Below, in pieces: positions 18,495 through 36,260 of a stretch of 64,000 nt of DNA. The translations under genes were made by a program, and so were the position numbers. This stretch comes from Myxococcus sp. RHSTA-1-4. GTDB lineage: Bacteria > Myxococcota > Myxococcia > Myxococcales > Myxococcaceae. Every line of letters begins with the position of its first letter. The stretch's first letter is position 1. The notes under the pieces were generated by a model. That model searched no databases. It was given only the letters and a program-made list of their open reading frames with translations, and was not told the DNA's origin. The stretch lies in contig NZ_JAIQDG010000001.1 of the NCBI RefSeq assembly GCF_020037125.1, positions 434,001 to 498,000 on the forward strand, written 5' to 3'.

Positions 18495-21116
18495 CTACGG
18501 CGAGTCCGGCGCGTCCGCCGCGCCCCCCGTGTTGCCCAGCAGGTGCTCCAGTTCCTCGGCCCGGGGGTCCTGCTCCAGCTCCTTGCGCCGGGTGTCCACC
18601 CGCGCGCGCTCCGCGGCCTCCAGCCGGGCCACCCACGCCTCGGCGTCCTTGCGGGAGCCGGGCGGCAACAGCCGCATGCCCTCGTGCACCGAGCGCGCCG
18701 CGGCGTCATACCGGCGCAGCGCCTCCTGCGTCCGCGCCACCGCGAACCACGCGTCCGGCCCCGGCACCAGCCGCGCCGCCGTCTGCCTCAATTCCACCGC
18801 GCGGGACAGCAGCCCCTCGCGCTCCAGGCATGACGCCTCCAGCGACAGGAGCCGCGCCCGCTGCGCGTAGTCCGTGAGGAAGGGAGACACCGCCTGCAGC
18901 GTGCCCCTCGCCCTGCGCGTCAGCCCCGCGTCCAACTGCCGCGCGGCCAGCGTGAAGGACAGCTCCACGTTGCCCGGGAAGCGCGCCAGCAGCCGCTCCA
19001 GCGCCTGCAAGGCCTCCTCGTGTTTCCCCTGCGCCCGCAGCACCTCCGCGCGCAGCAGGTGCGACTCCAGCGCCTCCGGCTCCAGCCGCTCCACCTCGGC
19101 GCACGCCGCCTCCGCCCCCGCCAATTCGCCCTGCCGCAGCCGCAGCCGCGCCTCGCGCGCCCACAGCGCCGCCATGCCGGGCTGGCCCTCGAAGCGCTCG
19201 CGCGCCCAGCCCGAGTAGGCCCGCGCCAGCTCCAGGCGCCCCGGCGTGTTGGCCAGCGAGTCCAGCAGCCGCACCGCCACCTCCGGCGCGTCCGGCGTCA
19301 GCGCGGCCACGTCCTCCACCGTGCGCGCCCGGGGCAGCGCCTCGCCCAGGAGCGCCGCCGTGTCTCCGGCCTCATGGGCCAGCCGGTACTCCAGGAAGCC
19401 CTGCGAGCCACGGCCCAGCGCCAGCAGGGCCCGCGCCGCCACCCGGTGCGACACGGCGTCGCGTGGCGCCAGGTACAGCGCGCGGTTGACGAAGGCCAGC
19501 GCCTCGCCCGCCGCCCCGCGCCCCTGCGCCGCGTACGCGGAGGCCACCAGCCGGTACAGCAGGTAGTCCGAGGGGTGCCGGTCGATGAGTGCCAGCCCGC
19601 GCGAGCGCACGTCCTGGATGGGCGCGCGCGAGGTGACGAGCCCCGCCAGCTCCGCCTCCGCGTCCGCCACGAGGTGCCGGCCGGGCACCAGCGCCACCAG
19701 CCCCAGCACCGCCAGCGCCGCGCCCGCGCCCAGCAGCAGCGGTGACGGCCTCAGGCCGCCCGGCTTCCCGGCCACCCGCCCGCGCTCCCGGGGACGCGCC
19801 ACCGCGCCCAGCCCCACCAGCGCCGCCACCGCGCACGCCGGCAGCTCCAGGCTGAAGTCGAAGAAGTCATGCAGCGCCAGCGCCGCCACGCCCGCCAGCA
19901 CCGCCAGCTCCAGCGCGTCCAGCCCCTCGCGGCGCAGCAATTGCGCGAAGCCCCACACCGCCACCGCCAGCAGCAACAGGCCCGGCACGCCCAGCTCCAC
20001 CGCGGCCTGCAGCACCGCGTTCTCCGGGTGCGTGAGGGTGTTGGGGTTGGGCTCGCTCTGGTAGCGAGGGAAGGCCGCCTCGAAGGCGCCACGTCCCATG
20101 CCCAGCACCGGGAAGGCGCGCGCGGCCTCCGCCATCATCGGCCACAGCGACACCTTGGAGTGGCGCAGCTCCTCCACGCTGTCCGCCGTGCGCGCCTCCG
20201 CCCACAGCCGGTCCGCGGCGGTGTACGCGCCCACCGCCAGCACGGCCAGTAGCCCCAGCAGCGCGGCGGCGCTCCGGGCCCACACCGGCGGAGCGCGCCC
20301 TCCACCCTCATGGCGCCTGCGCAGCAGCAGCAACGCCAGCAGCACCTGGCCGAAGACGAAGAAGGCGATGCCGCCGCGCGACAGCGACAGCAGCACCCCC
20401 AGGCCCCCCGCCCCCGCCGCCAGCGCGTAGGGCAGTGCGCGCGAGCGGGGCCGCGTGGTGAGCGCCAGTCCCAGCGCCACCGTGGAGGACAGCCCGAGGA
20501 AACCCGCGAGGTGGTTGGGGTTGCCGAAGGGCGTCACCAGCGTGGGCCGCGCGTGCATCCACGGGCGTACGCCGAAGAGGGACTCCACCCCGAGCAGCGA
20601 GTGGCCCAGCCCCACTACCGCCAGGCCCGCGCCGGTGAAGGCCAGCACCGCCAGGAGGCGAACCCGGCTACGGCGCGAGCGGCACACCTGCACCGCCGCG
20701 AGCAACGTCAGCAGGTAGGCCAGGTGCTTCGCCAGCTCGCGCCACGTGGCCGGCGGGTCCAGCGACACCGGCCGCGCGCCCTCCAGCCCCAGCGGCACCA
20801 GCGCGAACTCGCGCAGCGCGGCCGCCTCCGGGCTCAGCACGCCCAGCACGCCCGCCGGCAGCGGCACCAGCTGCACCGCGCACAGCGCCGCGCCCGCCGC
20901 CAGGGGCACCGCCAGCAGCGGGAAGCGCAGCGACTGGCCCTGCCGCTTCGCCCCCACCGCCGCCAGCACCGCCGCCGCCCCGGACAGCGCCATCAGCGGC
21001 CAGGGCAGCCACGGCGCCGCGCCGCCGAGCGCCAGCGGGCACAGCACGACGAGCGCCGCCAGCGCCGCCTCGGCGAACAGGGTGAATCGGGAGGTGCCGC
21101 GGCGCGAGTGGGACAT
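18495..21116 (-). CDS. Wzy/O-antigen ligase-like membrane protein with C-terminal TPR domain
   Basis: An 873-residue protein. Residues 1 to about 475 hold around twelve membrane segments, with the Wzy_C-type features SRGGIAFFVFGQ, GMGRGAFEAAFPRYQ and HPENAVLQAAVELGVPG. The remainder is soluble and built of TPR-like helical repeats ending in a charged tail. It would polymerise or ligate polysaccharide repeat units at the periplasmic face, and the TPR part could bind partners. From memory, the M. xanthus BPS polymerase WzyB has this shape and a similar place near rpoN. A second Wzy candidate lies at 54639-56171. Confidence 0.85.
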   Translation of the reverse strand: MSHSRRGTSRFTLFAEAALAALVVLCPLALGGAAPWLPWPLMALSGAAAVLAAVGAKRQGQSLRFPLLAVPLAAGAALCAVQLVPLPAGVLGVLSPEAAALREFALVPLGLEGARPVSLDPPATWRELAKHLAYLLTLLAAVQVCRSRRSRVRLLAVLAFTGAGLAVVGLGHSLLGVESLFGVRPWMHARPTLVTPFGNPNHLAGFLGLSSTVALGLALTTRPRSRALPYALAAGAGGLGVLLSLSRGGIAFFVFGQVLLALLLLRRRHEGGGRAPPVWARSAAALLGLLAVLAVGAYTAADRLWAEARTADSVEELRHSKVSLWPMMAEAARAFPVLGMGRGAFEAAFPRYQSEPNPNTLTHPENAVLQAAVELGVPGLLLLAVAVWGFAQLLRREGLDALELAVLAGVAALALHDFFDFSLELPACAVAALVGLGAVARPRERGRVAGKPGGLRPSPLLLGAGAALAVLGLVALVPGRHLVADAEAELAGLVTSRAPIQDVRSRGLALIDRHPSDYLLYRLVASAYAAQGRGAAGEALAFVNRALYLAPRDAVSHRVAARALLALGRGSQGFLEYRLAHEAGDTAALLGEALPRARTVEDVAALTPDAPEVAVRLLDSLANTPGRLELARAYSGWARERFEGQPGMAALWAREARLRLRQGELAGAEAACAEVERLEPEALESHLLRAEVLRAQGKHEEALQALERLLARFPGNVELSFTLAARQLDAGLTRRARGTLQAVSPFLTDYAQRARLLSLEASCLEREGLLSRAVELRQTAARLVPGPDAWFAVARTQEALRRYDAAARSVHEGMRLLPPGSRKDAEAWVARLEAAERARVDTRRKELEQDPRAEELEHLLGNTGGAADAPDSP

Positions 21117-21218
21117 GCGGGAAATGGGGGGCCACGAGTATGTCACGCCTCGCCAGCCCCGCCCCCTTCCCGCCCCATCCCCGGCCGCAAAGGGGCCGGG
21201 CGTGCGTGGGGCAATGCG

Positions 21219-21815
21219 TCAGAAGCGCAGGGCCAGCAGGGGAATCGTGGGACGGGGCTGCCACCGCCGCGCCTGCAACGTGGTGCGCGCGTCCCGGCGG
21301 GCCTTCAAGTCCCGCAGCTCGTCCTCCAGGCGGATGCGCTCGCGAATCAGCTCCTCGCGCCGGGCCCGGTTGTCGTTGGACGCCTGGGTGCCATTGATGA
21401 AGCCGGCGACGAGCAGCCCCACGCCCGCCACTCCGGCCAAGGACAGCCCCGCCCCCACGCCAATCATCGTGGCCTGGTCGCCATCGTCCTCCTCCCCCAG
21501 GCCGACGATGATGAGGGGGATGCCCACCAGCAGCAGGGGTGACAGCACGTAGCCGAAGTACGCCATCAACAGCGAGCCCACGGGGAAGTTCACGTCGATG
21601 CCGCGAATCTCGCTCTGGAGCAGGGCCACCTGCCGTGTCAGCTCGTGGATGCGCGCGTCCAGCTCCGGGTCCACCCGGGACGCGGGCGCCTCCGGGGGAG
21701 CCTGGGCCACGAGCAGGCGCGCGGACAGGTGCCGCCCGGACTCCGGGCTCAGCAGTGACGGCGAGGGGGACGTGGGCGTGGCGGCCAGCAGGACGGCGGC
21801 GACGAGCGTCAGCAT
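21219..21815 (-). CDS. Uncharacterised exported/membrane protein with coiled coils
   Basis: A 198-residue protein with an N-terminal signal (MLTLVAAVLLAATPT), a helical stretch (ELDARIHELTRQVALLQSEI), two hydrophobic segments (YVLSPLLLVGIPLIIVGLG and GAGLSLAGVAGVGLLVAGF) and a strongly charged coiled coil (RREELIRERIRLEDELRDLKARR). No family is recognised. It lies 100 bp upstream of the TPR-Wzy gene on the same strand. The ATG is at 21815. Confidence 0.75.
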   Translation of the reverse strand: MLTLVAAVLLAATPTSPSPSLLSPESGRHLSARLLVAQAPPEAPASRVDPELDARIHELTRQVALLQSEIRGIDVNFPVGSLLMAYFGYVLSPLLLVGIPLIIVGLGEEDDGDQATMIGVGAGLSLAGVAGVGLLVAGFINGTQASNDNRARREELIRERIRLEDELRDLKARRDARTTLQARRWQPRPTIPLLALRF

Positions 21816-21930
21816 GGGAATGGGTCCTCCCGGGAAAGGAGCAGGCGGGCGACCCTAGCATCCACCCGGGCACGCAGGGCTCGCGCGCGGCTTGCATCCA
21901 GGGGACCTTCTGGCATCTTCGCGCACACCC

Positions 21931-22206
21931 ATGCGCCGCCTCCTCATCACCGCCGCCCTCCTCTGCTCCACCCTGTCCGGCCTCGCTGGCTGCAAGGGCG
22001 CCTGCCGCGAGCTCGCGGAGAAGCTCTGCGACTGCTCCGTCAACTCCGTGGAGAAGGAGCTGTGCCTCCAGCGCGCCGCGGAGGAGGAGAACCGCGTGGA
22101 GCCCACCGAGGAGGACGAGGCCGTCTGCGAGGAGCGGCTGGAAGGCTGCGACTGCCGCGCCATCGAGACCGAGGAAGGCAAGCGCGCCTGCGGCCTGGCG
22201 CGCTGA
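21931..22206 (+). CDS. Small Cys-rich lipoprotein
   Basis: A 91-residue lipoprotein with lipobox LAGC (Cys21). The mature 70 residues contain eight more cysteines in CRELAEKLCDC and VCEERLEGCDC patterns plus acidic stretches, suggesting a compact disulfide-stapled module at the cell surface. I do not recognise the family. It heads a plus-strand group of small secreted genes (21.9-23.5 kb). Confidence 0.75.
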   Translation: MRRLLITAALLCSTLSGLAGCKGACRELAEKLCDCSVNSVEKELCLQRAAEEENRVEPTEEDEAVCEERLEGCDCRAIETEEGKRACGLAR

Positions 22207-22422
22207 AGGAGCATCGATAAATCGGCCCGCCTGCTCGTGACGCGGCCGGCGCTGACGAGAATCTCCGGAGCGCTTCCGCCCGGCTCCGTCTCCAGTCTGA
22301 ATCCACCAGGAAACGCACGACGGGGATGGCCCCGGAGGGACGAGGGCCGCACGCGGACGGGCAGAGCTCTTGGAGTCCACTCCGGGTGCGTGCCACGCTG
22401 AGGGCCTCTGCCAGGAGAGGCC

Positions 22423-22638
22423 ATGCGCCGGTCCCTTGTCTGGGTCTTCGTGCTGTCCTTGACGTCCGCCTGTCCCACCGCGCACAGGCCGGAGGGCTAT
22501 CTCGACCGGGACTCGCGCGCGGACATCAAGAGACAGACCCAGACGGAGAGGTGCGACCAGGAGAAGTACAGGAAACTCTGCCTGGACCCATTGGATGAAG
22601 AGGAGTTGGAGGAGTGCCTCAAGGCGTGCTTCGAATGA
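22423..22638 (+). CDS. Small Cys-rich lipoprotein-like protein
   Basis: A 71-residue exported protein. The signal ends LTSAC (Cys17), and the mature part is charged with three cysteines (ERCDQEKYRKLCLD, LKAC). The C-terminal CxxE-type pattern resembles the neighbouring 91-residue protein. An AGGAGAGG site lies directly upstream of the ATG. Its stop overlaps the ATG of the next gene (ATGA), so the two are coupled. The 216 bp before it show no gene. Confidence 0.7.
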   Translation: MRRSLVWVFVLSLTSACPTAHRPEGYLDRDSRADIKRQTQTERCDQEKYRKLCLDPLDEEELEECLKACFE

Positions 22639-23537
22639 GGTGGCGTGCCACCCTGGGCGCACTCATGGCGCTGCTGCTCCCGCTACCCCTGGTGCTGGTG
22701 CTGGGCAGCGCCCTGTACGCCCATCCGGAGCGCTCGCCCCCGCCTCCCGGCACGCCACCCACCGTACCCGTGCTCTCGTACGAGGAGCGCATGAGCCTCG
22801 TGACGTACCAGCGCGAGTGCTGGAGGCCCGGTGAATGCGAGCCCCCCTGGTCTGTTTCGGTGACGCTTATCGGATGGACCGCTACTGCACCGACAGCGAG
22901 TGCACCACGGATGCTCAGTGCGAGGAGGGGCAGGTCTGCCAGAGTCTGGCCGTCTCGAAGGGAAAGCTCCGGGTGCGCCGCTGCGTGGCCGTGGGCGTCC
23001 GCCAGGAGGGCGAGTCGTGCCTGAAGTACACCCTGGCCCCCGAGCAAGCCTGCCACCCCGGGCTGGTGTGCGGAGACCGGACGGGCCGGTGTGGTCGCCC
23101 CTGCCGCCCGGGCGAGGTGGGAAGCTGCCCGGAGGGCTTCTTCTGCGGCGACGTGGAGCCGGAGCCCATCTGCCTGCCCACCTGCGAGGGCCGCAATTGT
23201 CCCCAAGGCCAGCAGTGCATCCAGCACGAGGAGGGCGTCTCCGTGTGCGCCGTCGTCCACGGCACCAACTGCCAGCAGAACCCCTGCCCGGGGGGCGCTG
23301 ATGAGTGCGAAATCGATACCAGCCTTGTCCGCCAGACGGAAACCTGGATGCGCTGCCTCCGCCGGTGCGGCAGGAAGCGCCCCCCCCTGCCCGGAAGGAC
23401 TCGTCTGCGCCGGCGCCCGGTGCCAGTCCCCCTGCGACCCCACCGGCCCCGACACCTGCGAGCCGGGCTTCCACTGCACCCGCAGGACGCCGCGCAGCCC
23501 CTATCTCTGCGAGCCCGACACCTGGCCCAAGCGGTAG
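22635..23537 (+). pseudogene. Cys-rich secreted protein gene with two compensating frameshifts
   Basis: The gene begins with a signal-anchor (LMALLLPLPLVLVLGSALYA). It then leaves frame at a run of six C (22842-22847), continues in another frame with a dense Cys pattern (CTDSECTTDAQCEEGQVC, then CHPGLVCGDRTGRCGRPC), and returns to the first frame at a run of eight C (23380-23387). The final part reads CPEGLVCAGARCQSPCDP and ends PDTWPKR. Adding one C at the first run and removing one at the second restores about 300 residues. The pattern resembles the Cys-rich repeats common in myxobacterial surface proteins. It could be a decayed gene, a slippage-prone gene, or two sequencing errors. Confidence 0.7.
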
Positions 23538-23569
23538 CCACACGCCCCCAGACCGCGGGGCACGGGGTT

Positions 23570-23885
23570 TCAGGGGAACGTGACGTTGCGCAGCGTGACG
23601 GTGTGCCCCCCTTCCGCCTCCCACGGGCTGAGCGCAAAGGGGCCCTGGGGCGTGCCGGAAACCCGCGCCCGCAAGAGGATGCGTCCCTCCTCCCCGGCGG
23701 CAATGGGCGCCTTCTGCCAGGGCGCGAGCCGGAGGGGGCGCCGTGCCCTCTCGGCCCAGCAGCGCCGCGCCCTCGGCCCGCCAGGCCCGGGCAGGGTCGT
23801 TGCTGGTCACCGCCACCGCCACCCACCGCGGGGAGCGGCAGGTAATGGCGCGACGGACCTTCGGCACGTCGCTGGCGCGCTGAGC
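23570..23885 (-). pseudogene. C-terminal remnant of a DUF2381-type protein
   Basis: Read on the minus strand, the frame gives KVRRAITCRSPRWVAVAV then TSNDPARAWRAEGAALLGRE. After removing one base from a five-base run (G run 23734-23738 on the plus strand) it continues APWQKAPIAAGEEGRILLRA and ends GHTVTLRNVTFP before a stop at 23570. This ending is the pattern I know from myxobacterial DUF2381 proteins (TIGR02268). No start or N-terminal half exists: the acyltransferase gene ends at 23897. It is therefore a truncated, frameshifted fragment. The family call rests on memory of the motif. Confidence 0.55.
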
Positions 23886-23896
23886 CGCCCGGGACT

Positions 23897-25084
23897 TCAG
23901 GCCCCCGGCACCACCGGCCGCGCGGGCGCCGGCGCGGAGGACTCCTCGTCCACCCACGGCTGGAGCGCCTTGCGCACCCGCGAGCGCAGCGGCGTCTCCA
24001 CGTAGCGGTGCACCACCACCGACGCCGAAATCGCCAGGCCCATCAGCAGGCAGAACGTGGGCACGGGCGCGCTCACCTCCAGCCACGGCCCCAGCACCTT
24101 CGCCGCCTCCGACACCGGGTACTGGAGGAGGTAGAGCGCGTAGCTGGCCCCGCCCAGGTGCACCAGCAGCGGGCGGGAGAAGAGCCAGCCCAGCGGCCCC
24201 CCCCCGCGCGCCAGCCCGTACACCAGCAGGCCCGACGCGGGCGCCAGCAGCGCGTTGTGCATCAGCGGGTACGGAATCCGCGCGCCCGCCGCGCCCGCCG
24301 CCACCAGCAGCGCCGCGCCCACCGCCGCCAGCACCGCCCCGCCGCCCTTCACCGTGCCCGCGTCACGCTCGCGCACGAAGTACCAGCCGAGCAGCACGCC
24401 GAAGACGAACTCGGGCAGCCGCGCCAGCGGGTTGAACTTGAGCGCCAGCATCCAGTTCCCCGAGGTGCTCGCGTCCACCGGGCCGGCCCCGTCCGGCAGC
24501 AGCCACAGGTACAGCAGCGGCGGCACCAGCCCCAGCACCCACACCGCGCCCATGGCCACGGGCAGCAGCGAGGGACGCAGCCGGGGCAGCCAGCGCGCCA
24601 GCCGGGGGAAGAAGGCGTAGAAGAAGGCCTCCACCGACACGGACCAGCCCGGCGGGTTCCAGTACAGCGCCAGCCGGGGCACCCACGCCTGCAGGAGCGC
24701 CAGCGCGCCCAGGCCCCCTATCGCCAGCTTCACCGCGGCCACCTTCCACCCGTTGGCGGACACGGACATGCTCATGGTGCTGGGCGCCGACAGGAGGAAC
24801 GTCAGCGCGTAGACGGGGTACACCCGGGCCACGCGCGCGGCCCAGAAGGCGCGCGGCCCCGTCTCCATCCGGCCGTCCCCGTCCAGGTAGTTCCAGGCGA
24901 GGACGAAGCCCGACAGGACGAAGAACACACCCACGGCGGAGTAGCCCGCCCCCACCCAGTTGCGCACCCCCTCGGGGGCGTCCACCACGAGCGCCTTCCC
25001 GAAGTGGAACAGCACCACGTGGAGGGCCGCGAGGAACCGCAGCCCCGTGAGTGCGTCCAGAGAACCGGCCCGGCTCCGGCTCAC
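23897..25084 (-). CDS. Acyltransferase 3 family membrane protein
   Basis: A 395-residue, about ten-helix acyltransferase of the OafA/NolL type, which O-acetylates or otherwise acylates exopolysaccharide sugars. The conserved N-terminal TGLRFLAALHVVLFHFG carries the family histidine, and FWAARVARVYPVY follows with the arginines. The GTG start at 25084 overlaps the ugd stop by GTGA, so it is cotranslated with UDP-glucose dehydrogenase, which supports a role in the same polysaccharide. The C-terminal tail is Pro/Ala-rich. Confidence 0.88.
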   Translation of the reverse strand: MSRSRAGSLDALTGLRFLAALHVVLFHFGKALVVDAPEGVRNWVGAGYSAVGVFFVLSGFVLAWNYLDGDGRMETGPRAFWAARVARVYPVYALTFLLSAPSTMSMSVSANGWKVAAVKLAIGGLGALALLQAWVPRLALYWNPPGWSVSVEAFFYAFFPRLARWLPRLRPSLLPVAMGAVWVLGLVPPLLYLWLLPDGAGPVDASTSGNWMLALKFNPLARLPEFVFGVLLGWYFVRERDAGTVKGGGAVLAAVGAALLVAAGAAGARIPYPLMHNALLAPASGLLVYGLARGGGPLGWLFSRPLLVHLGGASYALYLLQYPVSEAAKVLGPWLEVSAPVPTFCLLMGLAISASVVVHRYVETPLRSRVRKALQPWVDEESSAPAPARPVVPGA

Positions 25085-26379
25085 CGCCGGCCGATGCCGA
25101 AGTACGTGAAGCCCAGCTCGCGCATGCGCTCCGGGTCGTAGACGTTGCGGCCGTCGAACACGACGGGGCTCTTCATCAGGCCCTTCATGCGCTCGAAGTC
25201 CGGGCGGCGGAACTCGTTCCACTCCGTCACCACGAAGAGGCCGTCCACGCCCTCCAGCGCCTCGTAGGGCACCGTGGCGTAGCGGATGCGGTCACCGAAG
25301 ACGCGCTTCGCGGTGTGCGCGGCCACCGGGTCGTGCGCCACCACCTGCGCGCCCTTGCCGATGAGCCCCTCGATGACCTCGATGGAGGGCGCCTCGCGCA
25401 TGTCGTCCGTCTTCGGCTTGAAGGCCAGGCCCCACACGCCGAACTTCTTGCCCTCGAGCGAGCCGTAGTGCTTCACGGCCTTGTTCACCAAGAGCTTCTT
25501 CTGGCGCTCGTTGGTGCGCTCCACGGCGCGCAGCAGGTCCAGCTCCAGGCCGTACTCACGCGCGGTGGCCACCAGCGCCTTCACGTCCTTGGGGAAGCAG
25601 GAGCCGCCGTAGCCCACGCCCGGGAAGAGGAACGGGTAGCCCACGCGCTTGTCCGAGCCCAGGCCCTTGCGCACGAAGTCCACGTCCGCGCCCACCTTCT
25701 CGCAGAGCGCGGCGATGTCGTTCATGAACGAGATGCGCGTGGCCAGCATCGCGTTGGCGGCGTACTTGGTCAGCTCCGCCGAGCGCGTGTCCATGAAGAT
25801 GATGGGGTTCTCGGTGCGCACGAAGGGCGAGTACAGCTCGCCCATGACCTTGCGGGCACGCTCGGAGTCCACGCCGATGACGACGCGGTCCGGCTTGAGG
25901 AAGTCATCCAGCGCCGCGCCCTCCTTGAGGAACTCGGGGTTGGAGACGACGTCGAACTCGAGCGTGGTGGAGCGACGGAGCGCCTCGCGCACCTTGTCCG
26001 CGGTGCCCACCGGCACGGTGCTCTTGTCCACCACCACCGTGTACTGCTTCATCGCCTTGCCAATCTGCTCGGCGGCGGCCAGCACGTACTGGAGGTCGGC
26101 GTCACCGCTCTCGCCCTCGGGCGTGCCCACGGCGATGAAGACCACCTGCGCGTTGGCCACGGCCTCCGGCAGGTCGCGCGTGAAGAACAGGCGCTTCTCG
26201 CGCACGTTCTTCTTGATGAGCTCCTCGAGTCCGGGCTCGTAGATGGGCACCTCGCCCGCCTGGAGCATGCGGATCTTCCGCTCGTCGATATCCACGCACG
26301 TGACGTCGTTACCCGAGTCCGCGAAGCAGGTGCCCGCGACGAGGCCGACGTAGCCCGTTCCGATGATGGCAATACGCAT
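25081..26379 (-). CDS. ugd: UDP-glucose 6-dehydrogenase
   Basis: A 432-residue cytoplasmic enzyme making UDP-glucuronate from UDP-glucose with two NAD+. It has the Rossmann start MRIAIIGTGYVGLVAGTCFA, the GTPEGESG loop and the catalytic Cys261 in GYGGSCFPKD. Length is typical. UDP-glucuronate is a common precursor of acidic exopolysaccharide, which fits the locus. It is coupled with the acyltransferase gene downstream. The nucleotidyltransferase-like gene ends 101 bp upstream. Confidence 0.96.
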   Translation of the reverse strand: MRIAIIGTGYVGLVAGTCFADSGNDVTCVDIDERKIRMLQAGEVPIYEPGLEELIKKNVREKRLFFTRDLPEAVANAQVVFIAVGTPEGESGDADLQYVLAAAEQIGKAMKQYTVVVDKSTVPVGTADKVREALRRSTTLEFDVVSNPEFLKEGAALDDFLKPDRVVIGVDSERARKVMGELYSPFVRTENPIIFMDTRSAELTKYAANAMLATRISFMNDIAALCEKVGADVDFVRKGLGSDKRVGYPFLFPGVGYGGSCFPKDVKALVATAREYGLELDLLRAVERTNERQKKLLVNKAVKHYGSLEGKKFGVWGLAFKPKTDDMREAPSIEVIEGLIGKGAQVVAHDPVAAHTAKRVFGDRIRYATVPYEALEGVDGLFVVTEWNEFRRPDFERMKGLMKSPVVFDGRNVYDPERMRELGFTYFGIGRR

Positions 26380-26480
26380 GAAAGAGTCCCAGTGGGGAAG
26401 TGTCCGGAGCAGGACTCATACGCCGGGACGCGCTCCGAAAGGAAGCCCGTCCCCCAGGGCAGGAGGGCAACCGGCCGGGC

Positions 26481-27449
26481 TCACTGGCCCGTGAGCAGCC
26501 GGCGCACTCTTTCCAATCCCTTGAGAGCCGTGGAACGCCCCGGGGTGCTGACTGCCCCCACCACCGTCCGGTCCAGCAATTCGCGAGTAGCCCGGCGCAG
26601 CGGCGGGAAGGCGGCGGTGGCCTCCGCGGCGGCCTCCGGGAAGAGGCGCGCGACGACGGCGAGCGAGGTGTACAGGGCGCGCTCCAGGCGCCACTCCGCG
26701 GCCCGGGCCAGCAGCGTGGGCACGTCTAATGGCCGGGAGTAGGCGCCACCCATGGACTTCGCGCCGGTGACGAGCTCGCGCAGGTCGATGAAGGACAGCC
26801 AGGGGACCTCGTAGCCGTGGCGCGCATGCTCCAGGGCCGCGAGCAGCACCGCGTCCTCCAGGTCCGCGCGGAAGATGGACGGGCCATACATCTTCATGGG
26901 CGTCGCGCGCTCGAGGATGCCCGCGGCCTGCTCGCGGCGCTGGGGACCCAGCACGTCCGAGTAGAGCAGGATGAGGGTGCGCCCATCCGACACCGCCTTG
27001 CTGGCACCCGTGCCGGAGGCGTCCTCCGGCTTGAACTCGTGGTTGGAGAGGAAGCCCGCGAAGCCCTCCACGTCCAGCCGCTTCATGAGGAGCTGCAGCT
27101 CCGTCACCGGGCGGAAGGCCACGTGGGGATAGAGGGAGTCGGCGAAGGCGGCGCCCCCGAAGAGCACCAGCCTGCGCCCCTGCAGCTCGTCGACCATCTG
27201 CTTGAAGTTGACGAGCTTCATCACGTTGTCATTGGCGGAGCCCTGGTAGATGGCCAGCAGCCGGTCCATCACCCACTCCGGCACGCCCGCGCCACCGAGC
27301 CGGTACTGGAGGTTGTAGGCGGCCAGGGGCGCCAGGCCCTGGGCGATGGCCCAGTCCACGTACTGCTCCCAGGGCGCGCCCCGCAGTGAGCCACGCGGAG
27401 GGTCGAACGAGGCGAGGACGCGGAAGGTGTCGAGGAGGCTGGGCGGCAT
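26481..27449 (-). CDS. Degenerate PF14907-type nucleotidyltransferase-like protein
   Basis: A 322-residue cytoplasmic protein aligning without gaps to the active-site region of its neighbour. The family pattern L-L-K-G...LYP...T-D-V-D-L-L is here LFGG...LYP...TELQLL. The Lys is replaced by Gly98, and the two metal-binding Asp by Glu117 and Gln119. It is thus likely inactive as a transferase and perhaps regulatory or substrate-binding. It lies 85 bp downstream of the active-looking paralogue, in the same direction as the WecA-like gene and ugd. The family name is from motif recognition. Confidence 0.65.
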   Translation of the reverse strand: MPPSLLDTFRVLASFDPPRGSLRGAPWEQYVDWAIAQGLAPLAAYNLQYRLGGAGVPEWVMDRLLAIYQGSANDNVMKLVNFKQMVDELQGRRLVLFGGAAFADSLYPHVAFRPVTELQLLMKRLDVEGFAGFLSNHEFKPEDASGTGASKAVSDGRTLILLYSDVLGPQRREQAAGILERATPMKMYGPSIFRADLEDAVLLAALEHARHGYEVPWLSFIDLRELVTGAKSMGGAYSRPLDVPTLLARAAEWRLERALYTSLAVVARLFPEAAAEATAAFPPLRRATRELLDRTVVGAVSTPGRSTALKGLERVRRLLTGQ

Positions 27450-27534
27450 GGTGGGGCCCCTTTAACGGGCGGGATGCCGGGCCTGCAATGGCCGCCTTCG
27501 CCCCCTCTGTGTCCTCGGCCGGACACCGGGGGGT

Positions 27535-28566
27535 TCACCCCCACCGCGCCCGGACCGCGTTCCCCGCCCTGCGCAGCGCATACCGCGCCATGTCCCCGGC
27601 CCGTGGCGCCAGCAGGAGCTTCGCCGCCACCCAGGCCGGCTTGCTGCGCGCCAGCTCCGCGCCCAGCAGCCGCTCGCCGGAGAAGAAGCGCCCCGCCAGC
27701 ACGCGCTGCCATCGTGGCGGCGCCAGCGCCTCCAGCACCTCCGCCGGCACCGGCGCATCCAGCAGCCGCCGCGCCGCCTCCCAGCCATACCAGGCCAGGT
27801 GTGGGAACGCCGTCCCTCGCGCCCCCTCCACCACGCCCCGCCAGTCCAGCCCCGCCAGGGCCAGCAGCTTCAAGTCGAAGAGCCACGCCAGCCGCTGCAG
27901 CAGGTGGTTGCTCGCATGCAGCGACAGGTACACCGCCTCGTCCTCCGGCCGCAGCCACCGCACCCGCCGGCCCTCCACCTCTCCCTCCACCGCCCGCGCC
28001 ACCAGCGCGTCCCCTTCCAGCGCCTGCCCCCAGCCCGCCAGCGCGCGGAAGTGCAGCTCCACCAGCCCCGCCGGCCCCGCCAGCTCCAGGTGGTGCGAGT
28101 CCTCCTCGCCATGCCGCGCGCCATCCTCCGCCCGGGCCGCCAGCCCCAGCCCGGTGAGCGCCCGCGCCGCCACGTCCACCTCGCCGCGCGCCACCAGCAG
28201 GTCCACGTCCGTGGCCGCCCGCTGCAGCGGGTCCGGGTACAGCCGCAGCGCCAGCCCGTAGCCCTTGAGCAGCACCGGCACCACGCCCACCGAAGCGAGC
28301 GCCTCCAGGCTCCGCACCAGCAGCGCCTTCAGCCGCATGGCCCGCGCCGCGCCCGCCAGGGACTCACGGCGAAGCAGCGCCCGGGCCTCGGTGGGCAGCT
28401 CCCACCCGGCCCGGCCCACCGCGTGCTCCACGAAGCCCGCCAGCCCATGGTGCACGGCCGCGCGCACCAGCCCGCCGGCCTCCGCGCCCACGGGGGCCGG
28501 ACGCACGGGGGCCTGGGGCCAGGACCGAAGCAGCGCCGCCAGGGCGCGCGCGTCCACCGCCGTCAC
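27535..28566 (-). CDS. PF14907-type nucleotidyltransferase
   Basis: A 343-residue protein with the signature LLKGYGLALRLYPDP then RAATDVDLLV: Lys101, Asp120 and Asp122. This is the MNT/NTP_transf_5 active site that usually transfers a nucleotidyl group. The substrate is unknown; family members occur in exopolysaccharide and peptide-modification loci. The GTG at 28566 overlaps the stop of the WecA-like gene (GTGA), tying it to polysaccharide initiation. A paralogue with lost metal ligands follows downstream. Confidence 0.75.
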   Translation of the reverse strand: MTAVDARALAALLRSWPQAPVRPAPVGAEAGGLVRAAVHHGLAGFVEHAVGRAGWELPTEARALLRRESLAGAARAMRLKALLVRSLEALASVGVVPVLLKGYGLALRLYPDPLQRAATDVDLLVARGEVDVAARALTGLGLAARAEDGARHGEEDSHHLELAGPAGLVELHFRALAGWGQALEGDALVARAVEGEVEGRRVRWLRPEDEAVYLSLHASNHLLQRLAWLFDLKLLALAGLDWRGVVEGARGTAFPHLAWYGWEAARRLLDAPVPAEVLEALAPPRWQRVLAGRFFSGERLLGAELARSKPAWVAAKLLLAPRAGDMARYALRRAGNAVRARWG

Positions 28567-30047
28567 CGCCTCAGCGCGACGACGCGCCCGGGCTCCACGT
28601 CCGCGTGCGCGTGCAGGCGCGCGGCCCGCTCCGCCACCGCGTCCGCCACCACCTCGAGCGCCAGCTCCTCATCGCGGTTGATGGCCGACCGCCCATCCCG
28701 CCACACCAGCAGCAGGGAGCCGAGCACCTCCTCGTCGTCCTTCACGTCGATGCTCACCTCGAACGGCACCGCCGTGCCCTCCGGGCGCTGCGTCTCGAAG
28801 ACGATGCCCTCGGTGAGCCCGCCGGACACGCGCTGGAAGCGCAGCTCCTGCCGCGCCACGTCCAGCCCCTCCGCCAGCGGCCGCAGCGCGTTCCACACGT
28901 CCTGCAGCGACGGGGCCGCGCGCACCGCGCGGGTGACGTCCTTCACCAGCGAGCGCAGCCGGATGTTGCGCTGCCGCACCTGCTGCACGTCCGCCGCGCG
29001 GCGCAGGTCCAGGTAGCCCAGCTTGCGCATCATCACCACGATGACCACGCCCATGCCACACAGCAGCATGGCGCTCTGCGCGCTGTTGGCGAAGTTCAGC
29101 CCCAGCGCCGTCAGCGTGAAGAGTCCGCACAGCCCGTACAGCACCAGCACCGTGGAGCGGTGGCTGAGCACCATGCGGCTCATCACCCGGTGGTGGATGT
29201 GCTCCTTGTCCGCGCTGAACATCGGCCGGCCCAGCAGCGAGCGCCGCACCATGGCCAGCAGCGTGTCCATGATGGGCAGGCCCAGCGCCATCACCGGCAC
29301 CAGCATGGCCACCGTCGTCCCGCTCTTCGTGCTCGTCTTGATGGCCACCGCCGCCAGCACGAAGCCCAGGAACATGCTCCCCGTGTCCCCCATGAAGATG
29401 GAGGCCGGGTTGAAGTTGAACACCAGGAACCCGAGGATGGCGCCCGCCAGCGCCGCCATCAGCAGGCACAGCAGCACGTCGCCCCGCGACAGCGCGAGGA
29501 TGAAGTTGGTGGCCACGCCGAAGAAGGCCACCCCGCCCGCCAGCCCGTCCAGGCCGTCGATGAGGTTGAGCGCGTTGATGACGCCCACCACCCAGAATAC
29601 CGTGAAGGGCAGGCTCATCGCCCCCAGCGACAGCTCCGGGCCGAAGGGATTGGCGATGACCTCGATGCGGAAGCCCAGCGCGTACAGCCCCAGCGCCACC
29701 GCGAACTGCACGGCGAACTTCAGCCGCGCGCCCGAGCCTCGCAAATCGTCATACAGCCCCAGCGCCGCAATCACAGCGCCGCCGATGAACAGTCCCGCCA
29801 CCAAATCCTTGTGAGAGCGGAAGTGATAGCCCACTCCCGAGTCCACCAGGAACAGCGCGCACAGCGGCGCGAAGAAGCCGCCGACGATGCCAATGCCTCC
29901 CAGCCGCGGAATGGGGCGCACGTGCACCTTGCGGCTCGAGTTGGCCTGGTCCAACCACCCCCACGCGACGGCCCGGTTGCGCACGAGCAGCGTGAGCACC
30001 AGGGCCACCATGAGGGAGACGAGGAACGCGACGAAGAGGGTAATCAT
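28563..30047 (-). CDS. WecA/TagO-like undecaprenyl-phosphate sugar-1-phosphate transferase with C-terminal extension
   Basis: A 494-residue polytopic enzyme of the MraY/WecA family. It starts repeat-unit synthesis by moving a sugar-1-phosphate (often GlcNAc-1-P) from UDP-sugar to undecaprenyl phosphate. Motifs are RKVHVRPIPRLGG, Asp100-Asp101 in LYDDLRGSG, NLIDGLDGLAGG (Asn161-Gly171) and HIHHR (283-287). After the last helix (about 345) some 150 soluble residues follow, rich in charged and beta-prone sequence, which are absent from E. coli WecA. It is likely the initiating transferase of this locus and is translationally coupled to the nucleotidyltransferase. Confidence 0.92.
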   Translation of the reverse strand: MITLFVAFLVSLMVALVLTLLVRNRAVAWGWLDQANSSRKVHVRPIPRLGGIGIVGGFFAPLCALFLVDSGVGYHFRSHKDLVAGLFIGGAVIAALGLYDDLRGSGARLKFAVQFAVALGLYALGFRIEVIANPFGPELSLGAMSLPFTVFWVVGVINALNLIDGLDGLAGGVAFFGVATNFILALSRGDVLLCLLMAALAGAILGFLVFNFNPASIFMGDTGSMFLGFVLAAVAIKTSTKSGTTVAMLVPVMALGLPIMDTLLAMVRRSLLGRPMFSADKEHIHHRVMSRMVLSHRSTVLVLYGLCGLFTLTALGLNFANSAQSAMLLCGMGVVIVVMMRKLGYLDLRRAADVQQVRQRNIRLRSLVKDVTRAVRAAPSLQDVWNALRPLAEGLDVARQELRFQRVSGGLTEGIVFETQRPEGTAVPFEVSIDVKDDEEVLGSLLLVWRDGRSAINRDEELALEVVADAVAERAARLHAHADVEPGRVVALRR

Positions 30048-30162
30048 TCAGGTTGCGCCGCCCGCCATGGTGACGGGCCCTGGCTCGGCGCGTCAATGAA
30101 TGCCGTTGTGTGATAACGGATAGACCCCGTGGCTGCTTGTTGAGCCACCGGCCGCCTGGACT

Positions 30163-31308
30163 TCACGGGTTCCGATGCTGGCGGAGAAGTGCCTCGTAGA
30201 GAGAAAGCGTGCGGGCGGCGATGTCCCGCCACGTCATGCTTCGCACCTCGGCCTGGGCGGCGGCACGCATCGTCAGCAGCCGCTCGCGGTCCTCCGCCAG
30301 CGAGCGCAGCGCGCCCACCTGCCCCTCCACGCTGCCAATGGGGATGAGCCGGCCCGTCACACCCTCTCGCACCACCTGAGGCGCCACACCCACAGGTGAG
30401 GACACCGGCGCGAGTCCGCAGGCCATGGCCTCCACCAGCGCCATGCCGAAGCCCTCCGAGTGGCTGGGGAAGAACAGCACCTCCTCGCCCTCCAGGATGC
30501 GCGGCAATTCGGCGCGAGCGTAGCGCGGCACCACGCGCAGCCGCCCCCGCACCTCGGCGGGAAAGGCCGCGAGCACCTCGTCCTCCTTCGAGCCCGTGCC
30601 GTACAGGCTCATGGCGAAGGGGATGCCCAGCGCGTGCAGCCGGCTGGCGGCGGCCACCATCTCGTCGCGGCCCTTGAGCGGCAACCAGCTCCCCACGCAG
30701 GCGATGCGCAGCGGCGCGCCGGGAGCGGAGGGGCGGGGCGGCGGCAGCGCCTGGAAGGGCGCGTCCAGCCCATGCCCGATGACGCTGAGGTGGTCCGCGG
30801 GCACGCCCAGGCGCTCACGCGCATACGCGGCGTCGAGCGTGTTGAGGAGCACCGCGTGGTCGGCCAGCAGCAGCGACTGGCGCACCTCCCAGAGGCGGAA
30901 GCCACCGTGGTAGAGCGGGTACTTCCAGCTCAGCTCCAGGTTGCCCGCGCGTGCGTCCGCCCGCAGCCGCTCGGAGAAGGTGTGCTCCAGGCCGTGGCTG
31001 CGCGTCACCAGCGCATGCCGGGCGCGAGCGCCGGGACGCTTCAGCCGCGCCCAGGGCCACGCATCTCCCGTGGTGATGTCCAGCACGTCGTACCTGCCGG
31101 CCGCGCGTGTCAGGTGCGCGGTGAGCTTCCACGGGAAGCGCACCTCGTGCCAGGTGCCGTGCTCGCGCACGCCGGGGAAGGCCTCGTAGTAGCTGAAGTA
31201 GTCCACCCCGCAGCCGAGCGCCTTCAGCGCCTCACCCAGCGCGAGCGTCACGCCGGGGGCGCCGAGGTTCGGGTCCAGCGGATGGTGGATGCCGAGGAGG
31301 ACTTGCAT
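30163..31308 (-). CDS. Glycosyltransferase family 4
   Basis: A 381-residue GT-B retaining glycosyltransferase. The N-terminal acceptor domain begins IHHPLDPNLGAPGVTLALGEAL, and the C-terminal donor domain carries the nucleotide-sugar EX7E motif EGFGMALVE (followed by AMACGLAPVSS). The WLPLKGRDEM stretch is the usual hinge segment. It adds one sugar to the lipid-linked repeat unit; donor and linkage are unknown. The gene is 115 bp upstream of the WecA-like gene on the same strand. Confidence 0.88.
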   Translation of the reverse strand: MQVLLGIHHPLDPNLGAPGVTLALGEALKALGCGVDYFSYYEAFPGVREHGTWHEVRFPWKLTAHLTRAAGRYDVLDITTGDAWPWARLKRPGARARHALVTRSHGLEHTFSERLRADARAGNLELSWKYPLYHGGFRLWEVRQSLLLADHAVLLNTLDAAYARERLGVPADHLSVIGHGLDAPFQALPPPRPSAPGAPLRIACVGSWLPLKGRDEMVAAASRLHALGIPFAMSLYGTGSKEDEVLAAFPAEVRGRLRVVPRYARAELPRILEGEEVLFFPSHSEGFGMALVEAMACGLAPVSSPVGVAPQVVREGVTGRLIPIGSVEGQVGALRSLAEDRERLLTMRAAAQAEVRSMTWRDIAARTLSLYEALLRQHRNP

Positions 31309-31422
31309 GGGCGGGGCCCTTCTAGGCCACGGCATGGAGGGATTGCGACTTCTTCGTTCCCTCCTTTCCTCCGGACGGCCGCCCCCCTGGCCGCTGTTGA
31401 CGGAGCGCCGCCGTGGACGACA

Positions 31423-32538
31423 ATGGCCCGCCCCCTCATGTCCCTCCCCGCCCGCCCGACTTTGCAGGCCTGCCTCGAGGGCCGCCGCAACAACCTCGAC
31501 TTCCTCCGCTTCGCCGCGGCCTCGGGAGTCATCCTCAGCCACGCCTTCCCCCTGGCCGAGGGCAAGGGTGCCGTGGAGCCGCTGGACGTGTTCACCCGGG
31601 GCCAGCTCTCGCTGGGCCGGCTGTGCGTGGCGGTGTTCCTGGTCATCAGCGGCGTGCTCATCACCCGGAGCTGGGAGCGCACGCCGGACCTGGCGCGCTT
31701 CACCTGGGCGCGCGTGCTGCGCATCTTCCCGGGCCTGGGCGTCATGCTGCTGCTGACCACGCTGGTGCTGGGCCCCGCCTTCACCGCCCTCCCGCTCCGG
31801 GACTACCTCACGTCCGCGGACACGCACCTGTACTGGCTGCGCAACTTCACCCTGGCCTTTCCGCAGTGGGACCTGCCCGGAGTCTTCGAGGGCAACGCGT
31901 ACTCGCCCGCGGTCAACGGCTCGCTGTGGACGCTGAAGTACGAGGTGGGCTTCTACCTGCTGACGCTGGGGCTCGGCCTGACGGGCCTCTTGCGCAAGGG
32001 CATGGTGGCCTTCGGCTGGGTGGGCGCGGCGGTGGCGTCCGTCATCACCGGGCGGCTGGGCTTCTGGCCGGAGCTGTACCTGTACTTCGGCGGCGGCGTG
32101 GCGCTGTACCTGTGGCGCGACAGGGTGCGGATGAGCCCGTGGCTGGCGCTGGCGTGCACGGCGGCGTGGCTCGTCATGGCGCGGCTCGGGTATGGGCGCA
32201 TCGGCACCGGCCTGTTCGGCGCGTATGTCGTGCTGTACCTGGCATACCTGCCCCTGGGCGCGCTGGCGGACTTCGGGCGCCGGGGCGACTTCTCCTACGG
32301 CGTCTACGTCTACGCCTTCCCCGTGCAGCAGGCCGTCACCGCGCTGCTCGGTGGGCGCACGGAGTGGTGGGTGAACGCGGCGGTGTCCTTCCCGGTGGTG
32401 GTGGCGCTGTCCGCGCTGTCCTGGCACCTCGTGGAGAAGCCCGCGCTGAGGCTCAAGGACTCGCCTCCCGCGCTGCTGCGCAGGCTGTGGCCCCCGGGCT
32501 CCCGGCCCGCCGCCGCGCACGAGCCCGGGGCGCACTGA
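31423..32538 (+). CDS. Acyltransferase 3 family membrane protein
   Basis: A 371-residue OafA-like acyltransferase with about ten helices. NNLDFLRFAAASGVILSHAF contains the family histidine and RVLRIFPGL the conserved arginine. WSLWTLKYEV-type and CVAVFLVISGVLITRSW segments also match. It likely acylates the exopolysaccharide and is the second such enzyme in the locus. It is divergent from the GT4 gene (114 bp apart) and convergent with the sulfatase-like gene (9 bp between stops). The ATG at 31423 has no clear ribosome site; ATG at 31438 is an alternative. Confidence 0.85.
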   Translation: MARPLMSLPARPTLQACLEGRRNNLDFLRFAAASGVILSHAFPLAEGKGAVEPLDVFTRGQLSLGRLCVAVFLVISGVLITRSWERTPDLARFTWARVLRIFPGLGVMLLLTTLVLGPAFTALPLRDYLTSADTHLYWLRNFTLAFPQWDLPGVFEGNAYSPAVNGSLWTLKYEVGFYLLTLGLGLTGLLRKGMVAFGWVGAAVASVITGRLGFWPELYLYFGGGVALYLWRDRVRMSPWLALACTAAWLVMARLGYGRIGTGLFGAYVVLYLAYLPLGALADFGRRGDFSYGVYVYAFPVQQAVTALLGGRTEWWVNAAVSFPVVVALSALSWHLVEKPALRLKDSPPALLRRLWPPGSRPAAAHEPGAH

Positions 32539-32547
32539 AGCTCCCGC

Positions 32548-34449
32548 TCACGGCCCTCCGGCCAGCCGCTCCCGGGGGGTCGACGTCACGCTGAAGCTGT
32601 CGCCCACCAGCCGGTCGTAGGTGAGCAGGCGGTAGCGCCGCAGCCACTCGGCCGGGGAGCCCGGGGCGGGAGCCGCGGCATCCCGCTCCGGCAGCGGCAG
32701 GTACTCGCCCGCGGCGCTCTTCAGGAGGTCGCTCCTCACCACCGGGACGTTCCGGGCCAGCTCGGTGAGGAAGGCGAAGAAGCCGTGGGGCTTCATCCCC
32801 GCCGCCTCCAGGATGCGCGGCGCCAACATGCCCATGCTGAGGTGGACGTCCTGCTTCGGCAGCGCATGGTTCGACCAGAGCACCACCGGCACCTCGGCCA
32901 TGCGCTCGCGCTGGGCGTCCGTCCACGGCTCCTTCAGGAACCCCGCCTCCCGGTAGAGGGAGTAGTTGGGGCCCAGCATCGGCAGGTGGTCGCCGAAGAC
33001 GACCAGCAGCGTCTTGCGCGGGCGCTTCTCCAGCGTCCGCACCAGCCGCTCCAGGGCGCGGTCCGTCTGGCGAACCTTGTGCGCGTAGTTCGTCAGCAGG
33101 AGCTTGTTGTCCGGCGACAGCTCGCCCAGCACCTGGACCTCCTCCGCGCCGGTGAGCGGGAGGCTGTAGGGCCCATGGGTGGACATGGTGATGGCCATGA
33201 CGAACTGAGGCTGGCTCTCGTCGGAGAGCTGCCGGAGGATGCGGTCGACGACCTCCTCGTCCGACACCCAGGGGCCCTCCAGCCTCGCGTCGGCGAAGTC
33301 CGCGAGCGACTGGAACGCATCGAAGCCGAGCAGCGGGTACACCACGTCCCGGCTCCAGTACCAGCCGTGGAACGGATGGATGGCGGCCGTGCGGTAGCCG
33401 GCGCTCCGGAACAGCGAGGGGAGCGCCTCCACGGGCTTGAGCACGTAGTGCTGGTAGGGGAAGGAGCCATCCGGCACGAACGAGGCCGACATGCCCGTCA
33501 GCAGCTCGAACTCCGCGTTGGCCGTGCCTCCGCCGAAGGACGGGCTGATGAGGTGGCCCGCGCTGTGGGTGGCGGAGAGCCCGCGCAGGAAGGGCAGCGG
33601 GTCCGTGCTGAGGCGCACGCCGAGCCGCGTGGGGTCCCAGAGGGACTCGGCCATGAAGATGATGACGTCGACCGGCTCCTCGGGCACGGGAGCGGGGGGC
33701 TCCACGTCACGGCCCAGCGCCGAGCGCACCGCCTCCGCCGAGTACGCGCTCCCCGGCTCCAGGCGCAGCCCCTCCCAGTTCCAGAGCATCATCAGCGGCA
33801 GGCCGTTTATCTGGAAGTTGGAGCGCTGGTCCCACACCTGGTGCATGACACCGAAGCGCATGAACGCCTTCGGCAGCAGGGGCAGGTGCTGGAAGAAGGT
33901 GATGGCCAGGAGGTACGCCAGCGACGCCATGGCGAGCCCGCCGCGCGCGGGCACCGGCAGCGGGAAGCGGGGCCGGCCCCGCATCACGGCGCGCGCCCCG
34001 GCCACGACGAGGCCCAGCAGGAGGAGCCCGGCGAGGATGGCGATGACCGTCCCGGCTCCCGGCAGGAGCGTGGGGGCCAGTGACGTCACCTGCCGCCACT
34101 CGAGGAAGTCCCACGGCAGCAGCGGCCGGCCGATGAGCTGGAGCTTCCGGATGTGGAGCGAGGACGTGAAGAGGAGGCCCGCGGAGACCAGGGCCAGCGA
34201 GACGCCGAGCCGGTTCGTCGCCGTCCAGAGCAGGCCCGTCACGCCGGTGATGACGCCCGCGCTGATGGCCATGGACCACAGGTTGCGCTCGTGGATGCCC
34301 TGAAGTCCCGCGGAGGAGAACGCCGCGATGGTCAGCTCCGTCGCGGCGACGAGCCCGGCGGAGGCCAGGATGACGGCGACGCACGGCCAGAGGATGGGGC
34401 GCGGCCGCTCGAGCGGGAGCGCTTCGGCTTTCAGGGAGCGGCGTGACAA
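32548..34449 (-). CDS. LtaS-like membrane sulfatase/phosphoglycerol transferase
   Basis: A 633-residue protein with about five N-terminal transmembrane helices (residues 20-200) and an extracytoplasmic alkaline-phosphatase-superfamily domain (about 255-600). Active-site features are FMAESLWD (metal ligand), the nucleophile Thr in GGGTANAEFELLTG, STHGPY, and FGDHLPMLG (metal ligands Asp and His). Such enzymes transfer phosphoglycerol or phosphoethanolamine to glycans. In a Gram-negative polysaccharide locus this points to decoration of the periplasmic glycan. The start is TTG at 34449, chosen because GGAGA lies 8 nt upstream. Confidence 0.85.
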   Translation of the reverse strand: MSRRSLKAEALPLERPRPILWPCVAVILASAGLVAATELTIAAFSSAGLQGIHERNLWSMAISAGVITGVTGLLWTATNRLGVSLALVSAGLLFTSSLHIRKLQLIGRPLLPWDFLEWRQVTSLAPTLLPGAGTVIAILAGLLLLGLVVAGARAVMRGRPRFPLPVPARGGLAMASLAYLLAITFFQHLPLLPKAFMRFGVMHQVWDQRSNFQINGLPLMMLWNWEGLRLEPGSAYSAEAVRSALGRDVEPPAPVPEEPVDVIIFMAESLWDPTRLGVRLSTDPLPFLRGLSATHSAGHLISPSFGGGTANAEFELLTGMSASFVPDGSFPYQHYVLKPVEALPSLFRSAGYRTAAIHPFHGWYWSRDVVYPLLGFDAFQSLADFADARLEGPWVSDEEVVDRILRQLSDESQPQFVMAITMSTHGPYSLPLTGAEEVQVLGELSPDNKLLLTNYAHKVRQTDRALERLVRTLEKRPRKTLLVVFGDHLPMLGPNYSLYREAGFLKEPWTDAQRERMAEVPVVLWSNHALPKQDVHLSMGMLAPRILEAAGMKPHGFFAFLTELARNVPVVRSDLLKSAAGEYLPLPERDAAAPAPGSPAEWLRRYRLLTYDRLVGDSFSVTSTPRERLAGGP

Positions 34450-34617
34450 CTGCGGGCTTCTCCAGGATGCGCGGGCAGGTCCGTGACGGAACCGTAACCC
34501 ATTCCTGGCGGATGGAGCTCAATTCCTCTCAAAAAGGCCCGGCGCCGGGGGCTCCTTCGCTCGACTGCCGCCGAGGCTGGCGGGCGTCATACGCCATTGC
34601 CTCACGGAGGCGCACCC

Positions 34618-35643
34618 TCACTTCGCCGGAGGCCCGGCGAGGAGCGCCGCGCCGATGGCGCCGGACAGCTCTCCCAGCTCCGCCATCAGCACCGGAGGCT
34701 GTCGCTCGGGGACGAAGATGTGCGGGCGCATGGCCTCATGGATGCGCCGGGCGTACTCGGGCCCGAGCCGCGTGCCCAGTCCTCCCCCGAGGATGATGGC
34801 CTCCACGTCGAGCAGGTTGATGGCGGACGCCATGCCCGCGCCGAGCATCCTCACGGCCCGGTCGATGAGCCACGTGGCCAGCGAGTCCTCCTCCCGCAGC
34901 GCCTTGTCCCAGATGCTGCTCGTCAGGCGCGGGCGTCCCTTGCGCTGCATCAGCTCGAAGAGAATCGTCTTCTCACCCTTGCGCACCGCCTTGCGCGCCT
35001 TGCGCTCCATGGCGGCCCGGCCCGCGTAGGCCTCCATGCAGCCTCGCCGCCCGCAGCCGCAGCGGGCGCCGCCCGGCTTCACCACCACGTGGCCAATCTC
35101 CCCCGCGGAGCCGCGGCCCCGCCAGGGAACCCTGTCCAGCACCAGCCCGCCGCCCACGCCCGTGCCCCACCACACGCCCAGCACGGAGCGATACGGACGG
35201 CCCGCGCCCAGCCGGTACTCGGCCGCGACCGCCACCTGCACGTCGTTGCCGAGCACCACGCGCCCGCCCGTCAGGTCTCCCAGGTCCGCGGCCACGGGGT
35301 ACGGCTCCGTCCAGCCCTGGCCCACGTTGCTCACGTGCGCCAGCGTGCCCGCGGCGGCATCCACCGAGCCGGGGGCCCCCACCCCCACGCCCGCGAGCCG
35401 CTGGGGTGTCAGGCCCGCGGCGCGCGAGGCCTCCAGCAGGGCGCCGTACATCGCCTGCACCACGTCCGCGGCGTTGCCATCACCGGGAGTCGTATGCCGG
35501 GTCCGGCCCAGGACGGCGCCGGTGCTGTCGATGACCACGGACTCGATTTTCGTCCCGCCCAGGTCGATGCCTCCCCAGGCCATGGGCGTGCCGGGGGACG
35601 GCTGCTCCGTCGTCTCGGCGTCCACCGAGGTAGCCTCGTCCAT
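34618..35643 (-). CDS. ROK family sugar kinase
   Basis: A 341-residue sugar kinase of the ROK type (glucokinase, N-acetylmannosamine or N-acetylglucosamine kinase). It shows the phosphate loop GIDLGGTKIES near the N-terminus, GNDVQVAVAAEYRLG with the catalytic Asp, EIGHVVV and the zinc-binding CGCGRRGCMEAYAG. The ATG at 35643 has GGAGG 6 nt upstream. It may feed activated sugars into the locus; the substrate cannot be told. It stands alone, 168 bp from the sulfatase gene. Confidence 0.9.
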   Translation of the reverse strand: MDEATSVDAETTEQPSPGTPMAWGGIDLGGTKIESVVIDSTGAVLGRTRHTTPGDGNAADVVQAMYGALLEASRAAGLTPQRLAGVGVGAPGSVDAAAGTLAHVSNVGQGWTEPYPVAADLGDLTGGRVVLGNDVQVAVAAEYRLGAGRPYRSVLGVWWGTGVGGGLVLDRVPWRGRGSAGEIGHVVVKPGGARCGCGRRGCMEAYAGRAAMERKARKAVRKGEKTILFELMQRKGRPRLTSSIWDKALREEDSLATWLIDRAVRMLGAGMASAINLLDVEAIILGGGLGTRLGPEYARRIHEAMRPHIFVPERQPPVLMAELGELSGAIGAALLAGPPAK

Positions 35644-36169: not shown

Positions 36170-36230
36170 GCCCTGCACCCGCCCGCTGTCCGCAACGGGG
36201 CCTACCTCCCTCCCACACTTCGAGGGAGAC

Positions 36231-36246: not shown

Positions 36247-36260
36247 CTCGCCGAGGGCTC

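Follow-up and report, generated by a model that had tools for sequence, protein, structure and literature searches.

A conserved, probably non-catalytic clade of NTP_transf_5 proteins and an active-type relative in the biosurfactant-polysaccharide locus of Myxococcus

Two neighboring genes of a Myxococcus polysaccharide locus encode proteins, here called A and B, that we read as members of two old and separate branches of the PF14907 (NTP_transf_5) family. On this reading, to which we give a probability of about 0.6, A is an active-type nucleotidyltransferase that goes with a wecA-like gene, while B is a non-catalytic protein that goes with ugd and has no dedicated partnership with A. The window, i.e., the whole stretch of DNA that was analyzed, is 64,000 nucleotides long and spans positions 434001-498000 of contig C46 in a genome of 11.2 Mb. 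A first-pass annotation of the window had drawn attention to the two genes as a tandem of an intact and a degenerate nucleotidyltransferase-like protein, and had suggested that the degenerate protein regulates or targets the activity of the intact one. Our results bear out its description of the two proteins and argue against the partnership.

Results

The genes for A (27535..28566; 343 aa) and B (26481..27449; 322 aa) lie on the minus strand as intact open reading frames, and the span of 26481-28566 first assigned to the pair is right. A is upstream of B, on the same strand and at a distance of 85 bp, and the order of transcription in the window is wecA-like gene, A, B, ugd and an acyltransferase gene. 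The wecA-like gene (28563..30047, minus strand; 494 aa) encodes a polyprenyl-phosphate HexNAc-1-phosphate transferase (PNPT) with a match to PF00953 (6e-41). Its stop codon overlaps the start codon of A in a GTGA (28563..28566, minus strand), so the coupling of A to this gene, as first noted, is real. The PNPT is also extended at its C terminus by about 150 aa that have no Pfam match, and its orthologues share this length. The usual downstream neighbor of B, ugd (25081..26379, minus strand; 432 aa), encodes a UDP-glucose 6-dehydrogenase that scores over the cut-off of TIGR03026 and matches NCBIfam TuaD at 1.2e-164, which is under the TuaD cut-off.

The pair is part of a Wzx/Wzy polysaccharide locus (18495..60740) recognized from Pfam matches and from a gene order that is the same as that of MXAN_1025-MXAN_1052. 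Genes for Wzc (58560-60740), Wzx (43194-44672), an acyltransferase (31423-32538), a glycosyltransferase (GT; 30163-31308), the PNPT, a further acyltransferase (23897-25084) and a Wzy_C+TPR protein (18495-21116), identified by Pfam, are in the same order as MXAN_1025, 1035, 1041, 1042, 1043, 1049 and 1052, which make up the reference order of the biosurfactant-polysaccharide (BPS) genes (PMC7484181). The PNPT is thus the positional equivalent of MXAN_1043 in the M. xanthus BPS locus, and on the basis of gene order the locus around A and B is the Myxococcus BPS cluster. The M. xanthus O-antigen priming/ligase locus was considered as an identity because of the Wzy_C protein and was dropped, as the gene order is that of BPS. 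Gene counting in a close relative suggests that A corresponds to MXAN_1044, B to MXAN_1047 and ugd to MXAN_1048; a limited literature search found no main-text mention of these three genes. A molybdopterin oxidoreductase module (36261-39870) and a gene for an astacin-type protease (40135-41241) also lie inside the polysaccharide locus.

Protein A matches PF14907 over nearly its full length (2.1e-35; 123 bits against a curated cut-off of 31.2). Its catalytic residues are K101 (codon at 28264-28266), D120 (28207-28209), D122 (28201-28203), E170 (28057-28059) and H172 (28051-28053), all on the minus strand. The retention of Lys101 and of Asp120 and Asp122, as claimed in the first-pass annotation, was verified, and an alignment that combines the orthologues of A (50) with those of B (74) shows no variation at any of the five residues among the A sequences. 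Judged by its residues, A carries every motif of an active nucleotidyltransferase. In two genomes A is seemingly frameshifted (G030, C2:324785-325799; G129, C1:2066901-2067898), possibly due to sequencing error, and B is intact in both.

Protein B also matches PF14907 over nearly its full length (1e-26; 94.5 bits against the same cut-off), as do all 43 B orthologues sampled for this match, and its closest named relatives are from Pyxidicoccus and Myxococcus. Where A-type proteins have K, D, D, E and H, B has G98 (codon at 27156-27158), E117 (27099-27101), Q119 (27093-27095; all minus strand), L161 and Y163; it is therefore without the third catalytic acid and the His that follows it. The Gly, Glu and Gln had been reported in the first reading of this DNA, and the degeneracy proves to be fixed in 74 of 74 orthologues, which argues that it is not due to chance. 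None of these orthologues has the K-D-D-[DE]-H signature or keeps the Asp pair. The Lys column holds mostly G, and otherwise D, E, A or S; the second Asp column is mostly Q or R, the third acid column has hydrophobic or mixed residues, and the His column is mostly Tyr. By every residue criterion B appears to be inactive, in line with the earlier suggestion that it is probably catalytically dead. The first Asp column is D or E throughout, and some contact with metal or nucleotide may therefore persist.

The former active site of B is occupied by a conserved motif of its own, LYPHxxFRP, which includes H109 and R113, the latter being common to A. G38, P57, G70, D74, H109, R113, G189, R224, E225 and A250 are invariant residues of B, and 12 columns are invariant across 43 divergent orthologues. 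That B has invariant residues of its own points to selection rather than decay. The very strong conservation of new residues at the former active site would be expected if B were an enzyme of changed chemistry that acts through H109, R113, D74, R224 and E225. We consider this decidedly unlikely, as the Lys, the His and both metal-binding carboxylates beyond the first are gone, and we know of no precedent in this fold for transfer without those residues.

The remoter full-length PF14907 members examined within Myxococcota have an intact K-D-D-[DE]-H, while three short and very divergent members keep the acids, their Lys and His positions not being judgeable. In a phylogenetic tree with long outgroup branches, all B proteins form one clade (support 100/100) and A nests among the complete proteins, which argues against an origin of B by decay of A. 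Recent decay of a tandem duplicate of A is ruled out by the tree together with the weak similarity of the two proteins, and a pseudogene is ruled out by intact open reading frames and by conservation in 117 genomes. On these residue patterns, B belongs to what we regard as a real, ancient pseudoenzyme clade of single origin within PF14907, present across the order.

Direct comparison of A and B by BLASTP is weak (28% identity over 127 aa; E value of 0.07). Comparison of a profile of 28 A-type sequences with one of 43 B-type sequences gives a probability of 98.8%, with a register that is uninterrupted over the active site (K101/G98, D120/E117 and D122/Q119), and so bears out the ungapped alignment from which the degeneracy was first read. 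AlphaFold2 models of B (pLDDT, 93.3; pTM, 0.92) and A (pLDDT, 89.4) are both predicted to have the nucleotidyltransferase fold. The B model matches MenT1 (Z score of 12.1 over 175 residues), ANT(2'')-Ia (Z score of 9.6) and LnuA (Z score of 8.3); the A model matches MenT1 (Z score of 13.4), ANT(2'')-Ia, LnuA and FKRP (Z score of 8.5). MenT1, MenT3/TglT, ANT(2'')-Ia, LnuA and TM1012 match both models, with Z scores of about 8 to 12 for B and 9 to 13 for A, which argues that B is not of a different fold. Sequence searches for relatives of A and B among solved structures gave nothing significant.

A search with a B profile found full-length B in 117 of 193 Myxococcota genomes, with one copy in each and all in the order to which the window belongs; these proteins score at least 337 bits, and the next homologues at most 117 bits. 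In a sample of 145 genomes of the class, an A orthologue is present in about 63, of which about 62 also have B, whereas approximately 55 of the 117 B genomes are without A, entire genera and family f2 (Anaeromyxobacter) among them (the counts of 117, 63, 62 and 55 were read off result tables). One genome (G126) has an A orthologue and no detected B. Among the 57 genomes with both genes on one contig, A and B are at most 300 bp apart in 25, 0.3 to 2 kb apart in 10 and farther apart in 22. Other genes or longer gaps, up to 57 kb, thus separate the two genes in 32. In many Myxococcus and Pyxidicoccus genomes an opposite-strand gene of about 870 to 924 aa lies between them (for example L113:7214-9826, L115 from 7731 and L118 from 8302); it is absent from the window, and M. 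xanthus-like genomes sometimes have further genes there as well.

These data bear most directly on the proposal that A has a pseudoenzyme partner in B, which would regulate or target the nucleotidylation carried out by A. The close, co-directional arrangement of the window recurs in the 25 genomes noted above, including the divergent G091 with a gap of only 40 bp, which makes the adjacency of A and B old too, and almost every genome with A also has B. However, B is widespread without A, the two genes are mostly not close together, the proteins are far apart in the tree, and the presence of A tracks that of wecA while the presence of B does not. We therefore consider a partnership unlikely, and the distribution supports the conclusion that B is not dedicated to A.

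The stable pairings are instead wecA with A and B with ugd. The first-pass annotation had linked A to the WecA-like gene, and in each of the 40 cases where wecA is within reach of a strong A orthologue the two genes adjoin, at -4 to +44 nt; genomes without that wecA have no strong A, and the divergent A proteins of G091 (51%) and G126 (47%) are without such a wecA. In 38 loci sampled at about one per genus, ugd lies downstream of B, on the same strand and within 430 bp, in 25, which belong to families f1, f2, f4 and f9; the distance is 2 kb in 2 more. A gene for a UbiA-type prenyltransferase is often the third gene after B and ugd, and is directly next in genus g14 and others; the identification of this gene as galU was ruled out. 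Adjacency and distribution thus define wecA-A and B-ugd as the conserved modules, of which the second is not obligate.

The conservation of a co-directional B-ugd pair over four families, often with the prenyltransferase, would fit a role for B as a subunit dedicated to Ugd, either allosteric or scaffolding, whose dead pocket senses UDP-sugars and sets the supply of UDP-glucuronate. This is possible but doubtful. Three reduced genomes (G007, G054 and G090, with loci L075, L110 and L111; Cystobacterineae, 2.1 to 2.7 Mb) have retained B but none of ugd, wecA and A, while family f3 has ugd without B and several genomes have ugd elsewhere, so that any role of B with Ugd is not an obligate one. Moreover, the BPS polymer of M. 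xanthus has been reported to consist of ManNAcA-ManNAcA-ManNAcA-ManNAc repeats (PMC7310880), i.e., of ManNAcA and ManNAc and not of GlcA. The adjacency of B and ugd could also reflect an inherited operon structure without physical contact of the products.

Three further observations concern these loci. In an Anaeromyxobacter-type ugd (L105:10087-12813, genome G061) there is an in-frame, intein-like insert in the active-site motif, after GGSC and before FPKD. In another genome ugd is split into two parts that share a reading frame (G092:C113:13462-16191). A sequence labeled Comamonas sp. KCTC 72670 (L144, BNCN01000002.1) has Myxococcus-like content, with B and Ugd proteins 81% and 95% identical to those of the window.

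Discussion

Our results suggest that the BPS locus of myxobacteria brings together members of two PF14907 branches that are old and distinct. Protein A, traveling with the priming transferase gene wecA, probably moves a nucleotide-derived group onto a product of that pathway; this group may be an NMP or, as with the fold-similar FKRP, a phosphodiester-linked unit. Protein B lacks what two-metal nucleotidyl transfer requires; the site that activates metal and nucleotide is gone, LYPHxxFRP and other conserved residues having taken its place, and B is most often kept in a two-gene unit with ugd. In view of the retained fold, the converted pocket and the association with ugd, our best guess, and the most likely role of B, is binding or scaffolding without catalysis in nucleotide-sugar supply or in envelope glycan assembly. 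One specific form of this role is that the B family uses the converted pocket to sense UDP-glucose, UDP-glucuronate or a related nucleotide sugar and, via the neighboring Ugd, controls the supply of uronic-acid precursors or polysaccharide assembly, which we offer as a rather improbable speculation. Since some genomes keep B but have none of ugd, wecA and A, B may have its main partner elsewhere among the components of the cell.

Limited literature searches found nothing on PF14907 as a family and no description of a conserved pseudoenzyme clade inside it. Proteins of this family are annotated as nucleotidyltransferases, and a whole conserved clade, B, is unlikely to consist of such enzymes. 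In a well-studied model organism this clade is represented within a locus for surface polysaccharide; it offers a clean case of bacterial active-site conversion that is open to testing and is a candidate new factor in myxobacterial nucleotide-sugar or envelope biology.

Within PF14907, which A and B match alike, B alone departs from the signature of the other full-length members seen. The closest solved folds, MenT1/MenT3, ANT(2'')-Ia and LnuA (Z scores of about 8 to 13), have approximately 10 to 20% identity, are mostly shorter and differ in having active sites and other functions. As MenT toxins are the best fold matches of both models, and the AbiEi antitoxin and Rv2827c are among the fold matches of B, A and B might form a MenT/AbiE-like toxin-antitoxin system in which a protein with a degenerate nucleotidyltransferase fold neutralizes an active one; degenerate folds of this kind may occur in AbiEi-type antitoxins. 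This is very improbable given the fixed place of the genes in a core biosynthetic locus, the wide occurrence of B without A, the A orthologue of G126 without a detected B and the intact B beside an apparently frameshifted A in G030 and G129. Neither protein matched the defense-system (PADLOC) models or the AbiE Pfam family.

Other known systems resemble A and B in part. FKRP, a LicD-like phospho-alditol transferase, aligns with the A model over 130 residues (Z score of 8.5; rmsd of 3.3 Å) without a sequence match, and A does not match the LicD Pfam family; its likeness to LicD and FKRP is one of fold only. PsmN, a nucleotidyltransferase homologue, presumably has family kinship to A. It is encoded in the lasso-peptide cluster of pseudomycoidin and adds one or two hexoses to phosphoserine in the peptide (PMC9266682). 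Thus, it likewise combines a nucleotidyltransferase homologue with sugar, but it has a peptide substrate and a lasso-peptide context, and is active with no pseudoenzyme beside it. Dead nucleotidyltransferase folds that are kept for binding are found in eukaryotic NF45-NF90 and MiD51. These proteins are like B in having a dead fold but belong to other sequence families, with functions in RNA or mitochondrial biology; NF45 pairs with NF90 as a heterodimer, whereas an obligate pairing of active and dead proteins is not seen for A and B, about half of the B genomes having no A. The M. xanthus BPS locus, MXAN_1025-MXAN_1052, shares its gene order with the locus of A and B, and published work on it covers Wzx, Wzy, Wzc, the PNPT and OPX.
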